Below are positions 6,371 through 6,843 of a stretch of DNA of 6,843 nt, piece by piece. Numbering within the stretch: position 1 is the first letter of the stretch; each line of letters begins with the position of its first letter. This DNA is from a bacterium (GTDB lineage: Bacteria > UBP15 > UBA6099 > JAJRTR01), in the NCBI GenBank assembly GCA_024278215.1, contig JAJRTR010000028.1:1-6843 (forward strand). Direction: 5' to 3'. The notes beneath the pieces were generated by a model. It made no database searches and was not told the origin of the DNA. It was given only the letters and a program-made list of their open reading frames with translations. Both the position numbers and the translations under genes were made by a program.

Positions 6371-6425
6371 CGCAGCTAAAGTGCCGTTTCCGATGTGCAT
6401 GATAGTCCGTTCACAGGTAGCTGCG
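6371..6425. repeat. 8-bp inverted repeat CGCAGCTA / TAGCTGCG
   Basis: CGCAGCTA (6371-6378) and TAGCTGCG (6418-6425) are perfect reverse complements 39 bases apart. The right arm directly abuts the long palindrome starting at 6426. The same octamer CGCAGCTA returns at 6832-6839 in the repeat-like segment at the window edge, which may link the two elements. Confidence 0.5.
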
Positions 6426-6537
6426 ACGGTACATCTGAAATTTCTGGAATGCAACGACTGTGTCGTTGCAACTGTGAAGAAGTCGCATTTCGCAAAAACT
6501 GACGTTATTGCATTCCAGGATTTTCTGACAGTGCCGT
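6426..6537. repeat. Long imperfect palindrome (112 bases) with a nested alternative hairpin
   Basis: The core arms CTGGAATGCAA (6444-6454) and TTGCATTCCAG (6508-6518) are a perfect 11-bp inverted repeat. Going outward, the match continues for about nine more positions, with two mismatches and one wobble. After a small bulge ACGGTAC (6426-6432) pairs with GTGCCGT (6531-6537). Arms of about 29 bases enclose a 53-base loop. TGCAA at the inner end of the left arm is also used by a tight hairpin at 6450-6470, so the two folds exclude each other. It could be a miniature mobile element, a REP/BIME-like repeat or a structured RNA; no transposase is nearby. Confidence 0.6.
6450..6470. repeat. Perfect 9-bp hairpin inside the long palindrome
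   Basis: TGCAACGAC (6450-6458) and GTCGTTGCA (6462-6470) are exact reverse complements around a TGT loop. The hairpin is not followed by a T run on either strand (plus: ACTGTGAAG), so it is not an intrinsic terminator. Confidence 0.65.
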
Positions 6538-6559
6538 TAAACTCAAAATCCGTGGGTTG

Positions 6560-6585
6560 TTATTCTGAGCGAAGCGAAGAATCTC
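6560..6585. repeat. Short dispersed-type repeat (TCTGAGCGAAGCGAAGA core)
   Basis: The stretch has ATTCT (6562-6566) and AGAAT (6578-6582) as a 5-bp stem around GAGCGAAGCGA. From general knowledge, this sequence recurs between genes in many unrelated bacterial genomes and yields the junk peptide YSERSEESP when translated, as it does in the plus-strand frame here. Only one copy is in the window, so its repeat status rests on recognition, not on internal evidence. Confidence 0.6.
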
Positions 6586-6704
6586 CAGGTGTTTAAGTAT
6601 TATTCTCAGTGCTCCCCGTAAACAGTTACATAATTATTCTACCCACACAAAATAGCGAAGAGGCATAAATATTATATTCATGTACCGCCTGCAAAGAATA
6701 ATTT

Positions 6705-6843
6705 CAGTAGAGCCAATTGCAAAATTATGTTCGTAGCGAGGTCGAGCGAAATTGTTCCGAAGCAAGGCGGAGATGCGAAATCCCCGCAGGCGTACTTGTA
6801 GAGTACGTCGAGGACGATTTTACACCGACAACGCAGCTATGGA
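6705..6843. repeat. Left part of a probable large palindromic repeat, cut by the window edge
   Basis: The segment centres on a clean hairpin: GGCGTACT (6789-6796) pairs with AGTACGTC (6802-6809), with one wobble, around TGTAG. Outward, the two sides still match in about 17 of the first 30 mirrored positions, so a longer imperfect stem is likely. No coding signal is visible. Its left end appears to be near CAGTAGAGCCAATTGCAAAA (6705-6724); the mirror image of that end would lie beyond the window. Similarity to intergenic repeats of uncultured bacteria is an impression, not a database result. Confidence 0.45.

Follow-up and report, generated by a model that had tools for sequence, protein, structure and literature searches.

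The palindrome and its folds

The window analysed here (6,843 nucleotides in all) contains, roughly 200 bp upstream of where a gene for an S41 (C-terminal processing) peptidase starts, an old, damaged copy of a dispersed, non-coding mobile element, at positions 6405-6629 of the forward strand. Its interior is a palindromic core (6426-6537, forward strand) in which an imperfect outer stem surrounds two hairpins. The arms of a perfect 11-bp inverted repeat, CTGGAATGCAA at 6444-6454 and TTGCATTCCAG at 6508-6518, are exact reverse complements, and further out 6426-6432 pairs with 6531-6537. A perfect 9-bp hairpin at 6450-6470 of the forward strand, TGCAACGAC-TGT-GTCGTTGCA, has the bases TGCAA in common with the left arm. 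These three features had been noticed in a sequence-only reading of the window and are confirmed here. That reading missed that the right arm is likewise shared, with a second hairpin (6492-6511, reverse strand) that is free of mismatches in the consensus of the family (GCAAAAAC-TGAC-GTTTTTGC). The stretch 6420-6543 folds at -47 kcal/mol, better than any of 200 dinucleotide shuffles (z = -5.4). As for perfect 11-bp inverted repeats with a gap of at most 60, the window holds one, compared with 0.085 per shuffled window, and 13 of 200 shuffles hold any.

In the family consensus, the core consists of two different hairpin units in inverted orientation, both headed by CTGGAATGCAA, i.e. CTGGAA(TGCAA). 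The head of unit 1 lies at 6444-6454 on the forward strand and that of unit 2 at 6508-6518 on the reverse strand. Unit 1 has the same hairpin as the window copy, and unit 2, read on the other strand, is TGCAAAAAC-GTCA-GTTTTTGC(G). The consensus folds at -55 kcal/mol into a three-way junction, in which hairpin 1 and most of the long stem coexist. Across 26 copies, the helices are kept in 92.6% of cells; the values are 97.6% for the pairs of hairpin 1 and 98.6% for those of hairpin 2, for which C203 has the variant TGGAATGCAATAAC.

It had been proposed that the long stem and the 9-bp hairpin are mutually exclusive. This holds only for the five innermost pairs of the arm, since the hairpin is compatible with the remainder of the long stem. 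In the window copy, a rod (-44.9 kcal/mol) competes with a three-way junction (-43.9 kcal/mol), and forcing the 9-bp hairpin costs 1 kcal/mol while the outer stem is retained in the junction. That two folds were seen at all is explained by the two hairpins with the same head in inverted orientation. The unit heads would pair with each other to give the long stem and its 11-bp inverted repeat, the unit tails would give the hairpins, and branch migration by a few base pairs would generate the alternatives. Hairpin 2 of the window copy has an A in place of T at 6507, which breaks this hairpin and makes the rod competitive. The near-equal folds thus appear to be due mainly to a mutation private to that copy. 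The rod is also the best fold for a few other copies, e.g. C48 and C111.

Copies, ends and target duplications

Searching the 4.55-Mb genome (207 contigs) with the segment 6340-6620 returned at least 56 BLAST places. With the full consensus of 232 bp, whose positions 4-232 align to 6406-6629 of the window at 93% identity, we found at least 49 places. At least 11 of them are full or near full length (92-98% identity), and at least about 20 are partial but substantial, so that the substantial copies number at least about 30 overall. None of the six other genomes of the phylum contains the element. Searches of the own and related genomes had been suggested in the sequence-only reading, which named a single unconserved copy as the outcome that would speak against it; the segment is multicopy.

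The boundaries of the copies coincide across the alignment, and the ends are imperfect inverted repeats of about 15 bp that start with GTAACTG and GTATCCG. The left one is GTATCCGTTCACAGG and the right one GTAACTGTTCACGGG, the reverse complement of the right end being GTAACTGTTCACGGGG. Fifteen-mers resembling these ends occur at 136 sites, compared with 21 for the reversed pattern; at most of the single sites that we examined, the genes enclosed are ordinary ones rather than transposases. Among the 15 copies with both ends, seven are flanked by 8-bp duplications with at least 7 of 8 identical positions in a fixed register, a level reached by one of the 210 control pairs in which left and right flanks were taken from different copies. 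Examples are CAATTTAT (C112), GTCTTTTC (C181), ATTACCAG (C79) and, for another copy, CCGAAATC. C48 has lost its terminal bases and shows a perfect duplication, TCCATGAT, with the register shifted by one base. Shared boundaries, inverted-repeat ends and 8-bp duplications are marks of transposition.

The copy in the window bears traces of its age. Its left terminal repeat (6405-6419, forward strand) is damaged, with GT--CCGTTCACAGGTA for GTATCCGTTCACAGGTA in the consensus, and its flanks match at 4 of 8 positions only, i.e. with no clear target duplication. The right terminal repeat (6615-6629, reverse strand), GTAACTGTTTACGGG when read inward, was retrieved by the pattern search with one mismatch and resembles the ends of IS66 elements. 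Most copies sit between open reading frames. Joining the flanks of the copies in the own genome yielded no convincing empty site, and an empty site in a relative is not demonstrable because the element is absent from all six. The family thus has the features of a MITE, namely a length below 300 bp, interspersed copies without coding capacity, terminal inverted repeats and a target duplication of constant size (8 bp). Of the possibilities raised for the palindrome from the sequence alone, that of a miniature element was the right one.

Other repeats occur in and around the element. Five copies (L064, L065, L071, L072 and L074) harbour nested insertions at the same point, GTTAA, at element position 143-148 or so; the inserted sequences are small palindromic repeats such as CCCGCATATTTCACCAATGCGGG, and also an element that has CCCAATACCGTTTACTTAAG at its borders. 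The right half of the MITE contains a second palindromic motif, ATTCTGAGCGAAGCGAAGAATCT (6562-6584, forward strand), which is unrelated to the core. Nine of the 145 genomes sampled, from different families, contain exact matches to it, often several (23 in G038, 6 each in G093 and G143 and 5 in G136), with no match for the control. Variants changed on both sides of the stem occur (GAACGAAGTGAAGAATC), and no IS66-like ends surround the motif in the other genomes. Downstream of the MITE, the stretch from 6710 to 6843, where the contig stops, is another dispersed repeat, about 130 bp long and unrelated to the first. It has more than ten copies in the own-genome loci examined (75-93% identity), and it is probably what ends the contig.

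Relationship to IS66 elements

Published features of IS66 are a terminal repeat starting with GTAAGCG and 8-bp direct repeats (PMC11946415), duplications of that length being also described in PMC3281130. For comparison, we collected IS66 elements from 145 genomes with the PF03050 model. Two 1493-bp elements of genome G053 (L109 and L127) each encode a single 494-residue PF03050 transposase (E about 1e-39 to 1e-40) and are flanked by the 8-bp duplications AAGTAAAC and CATGATTC. When the right end of the MITE is compared with the windows of 18 bases along such a locus (about 7,600), the two best (14 of 18) are the true ends of the element, GTAACTATTCAGGGGGTA and GTAACCATTCAGGGGGGT. As for the left end, the best of 6,218 windows at L110 (genome G051), GTATCCGATCACAGGGTA, matches at 15 of 18 positions and is located immediately past the 3' end of a gene for an IS66 transposase. 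At L113 (genome G093), an IS66 gene is likewise bordered by the best matches to the MITE ends or lies next to them. L104, which belongs to another IS66 subgroup and is a longer element with two ends, does not match at these ends (7-8 of 18), and the assignment of the MITE is therefore restricted to a single end type and does not extend to the whole family.

The MITE shares with these single-ORF elements (L109, L127, L110 and L113) ends of the form GTAAC(C/T)nTTCA(C/G)...GGGG / GTATCCGnTCACAGGG and target duplications of 8 bp. It differs from them in the lack of a transposase gene, in its size (232 bp as opposed to about 1.5 kb or more) and in a left end that begins with GTATC. Taken together, the element is very probably a MITE with IS66-type ends, presumably recognised by an IS66 transposase, and the palindrome is its internal core. 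As a family it is new, although ordinary in kind; our search of the literature, partial in coverage, returned no IS66-derived MITE. An analogous MITE is present in an unrelated genome, beside the IS66 gene of L113 (2724-2923, G093). This 200-bp hairpin element (fold of -82 kcal/mol) resembles our MITE in its ends (ATAACCGTTCAGCC / GTAACCGTTCACCC) and in being flanked by a duplication of 8 bp, AAGAAAGA; its internal sequence, examined at a single locus, is different.

The PF03050 search detected no IS66 transposase in the own draft assembly and, elsewhere in the phylum, one copy without matching ends in G001 and a fragment in G004. The MITE is presumably mobilised in trans. An IS66-family transposase absent from the draft assembly would recognise its ends and move it by the ordinary DDE route, the palindrome travelling as a cargo-like internal core. 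Two contigs of the own genome, C38 and C200, start inside an element with the end GTAACCGTTCACAGGGTAGC, of which about 140 bp are covered (1-139 and 1-141, L079 and L084). Its end, with the bounding sequence GTAACCGTTCACAGGG, is of the same type as those of the MITE. Contigs that break off inside an element are the usual sign of an unassembled repeat. It is thus likely that this is an unassembled insertion sequence and a candidate parent of the MITE. As both contigs stop inside an element with the matching end type, the transposase-bearing partner may simply be missing from the assembly; alternatively, the genome may have lost it. The interior of the element was not found in relatives or plasmids, and no peptide is recognisable in its short end.

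Possible roles of the core and comparison with known systems

Is the core more than cargo? A composite parasite may be envisaged, namely a MITE of the IS66 type whose cargo is a REP-like doublet of inverted hairpins together with the second, widely distributed palindrome. Selection would act on the core and on the orientation of the element relative to genes, and the element would serve as an oriented 3'-end structure for the right gene. We regard this as unlikely, if slightly less so than the two readings that follow. In the first of these, the core has a selected, domesticated function, for instance as an mRNA 3'-end structure, and mobility is now incidental. Variation does affect 2.6% of cells in the core (24 of 937) and 8.1% in the rest of the element (179 of 2203; Fisher p 5.5e-10 by cells, which are not independent since the copies are related). 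By sites, 18 of 67 are variable in the core and 82 of 165 outside it (p 0.002). The core, its unpaired linker included, is about a third as variable as the remainder. Furthermore, the right gene is directed toward the element at 21 of the 25 loci (p 0.0009), compared with 10 of 25 for the left gene. These counts were made on the own-genome copies L051-L075 with genes called by a simple longest-frame rule, and the bias is robust to the open-reading-frame cut-off. Nevertheless, several copies lack one hairpin, and two copies devoid of the core (L147 and L148, on C105 and C22) share one deletion junction, which suggests that a core-less form has spread and counts against the core being needed for transposition. 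Conservation and orientation bias could reflect function, a target preference or descent from a few recent source copies. A domesticated core is, in our view, improbable.

About equally improbable is that the core is of the REPIN or BIME type, i.e. a pair of REP-like hairpins in inverted arrangement for which a RAYT (Y1) transposase provides the mobility, the IS66-like ends belonging to a separate, older carrier. The core does have two inverted hairpin units that share their head, as in the inverted REP doublets predicted to form hairpins that define REPINs (PMC3116915), and the own genome encodes six Y1_Tnp proteins. Hairpin 1 matches at least 37 places in the own genome with at most one mismatch (none for the reversed control pattern) and none in the six relatives. 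Outside the 232-bp copies, it is found mostly in decayed or related elements, including ones with the end GTAATTGTTCACGGG, and also as a few solitary units (C56, C6, C186 and C83); at the C83 locus, the two units are in the opposite, divergent arrangement. However, none of the six Y1_Tnp loci has hairpin units within about 1.5 kb. The unpaired tags GTAG and CGTC, which characterise two superfamilies described for most REPs (PMC3733652), are lacking, the head being CTGGAA/TGGAG. In addition, clean boundaries and target duplications belong to the 232-bp element, not to the doublet, and the linker is conserved to almost the same degree as the hairpins that it joins, unlike a REPIN spacer. Another repeat, CCCGCATATTTCACCAATGCGGA, is found some 60 bp upstream of a gene for a Y1 (RAYT-like) transposase (L153:2004, on C201), and the two possibly form a REP/RAYT pair of their own. 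In other genomes, a 23-mer of the core had two matches of 23-25 bp with no similarity beyond, which we judged coincidental, and the core is absent from the viral contigs, phages and plasmids searched.

The sequence-only reading had also suggested a switch or attenuator, which would be an RNA that acts in cis and whose two folds would each correspond to one regulatory state of the transcript, an idea to which the strength of the fold and the 1 kcal/mol between the alternatives in the window copy lent some appeal, but which is highly implausible given that the many copies lie beside unrelated genes, that the two folds are largely compatible and the consensus favours one of them, that no terminator-like site was found and promoters are at chance level, that Rfam, at gathering and relaxed thresholds, returned no family reaching its gathering score and only two sub-threshold microRNA hairpin models, and that the proposed covariation analysis of 26 copies, whose low divergence limits its power, gave no signal above shuffles (two pairs with a double change, as many as in 223 of 500 shuffles). 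The palindrome is not evidence of an RNA switch. A switch-like structure is thereby explained as a mobile element, which serves as a warning that folds of this kind near genes can be transposon interiors. Our study also adds an IS66-type MITE family for a sparsely sampled phylum (seven genomes). With its nested palindromes and its orientation bias, it provides a concrete system for how small palindromic repeats spread inside transposon-derived elements.

As in REPINs and BIMEs (PMC3116915, PMC3733652), the core is made up of two inverted hairpin units that can form one long stem or separate hairpins; the title of a supplementary figure in PMC3116915 mentions two alternative REPIN folds. The core differs from them in that it sits within a larger element, which has target duplications of its own, and it is not filed as a REPIN because it lacks the tags described for REPs and has no RAYT gene next to it. 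Compared with known MITEs, MITECca01 of Cardinium, a 240-bp derivative of an IS982 element (PMC9769881), and MITEPsy1 (PMC3189936), the present family stands out by its IS66-type ends, its strong internal palindrome and a parent element that is not assembled. Like both of them, it is shorter than 300 bp and non-coding, with inverted terminal repeats and interspersed copies, and, like MITECca01, it is present in high copy number and mostly intergenic.
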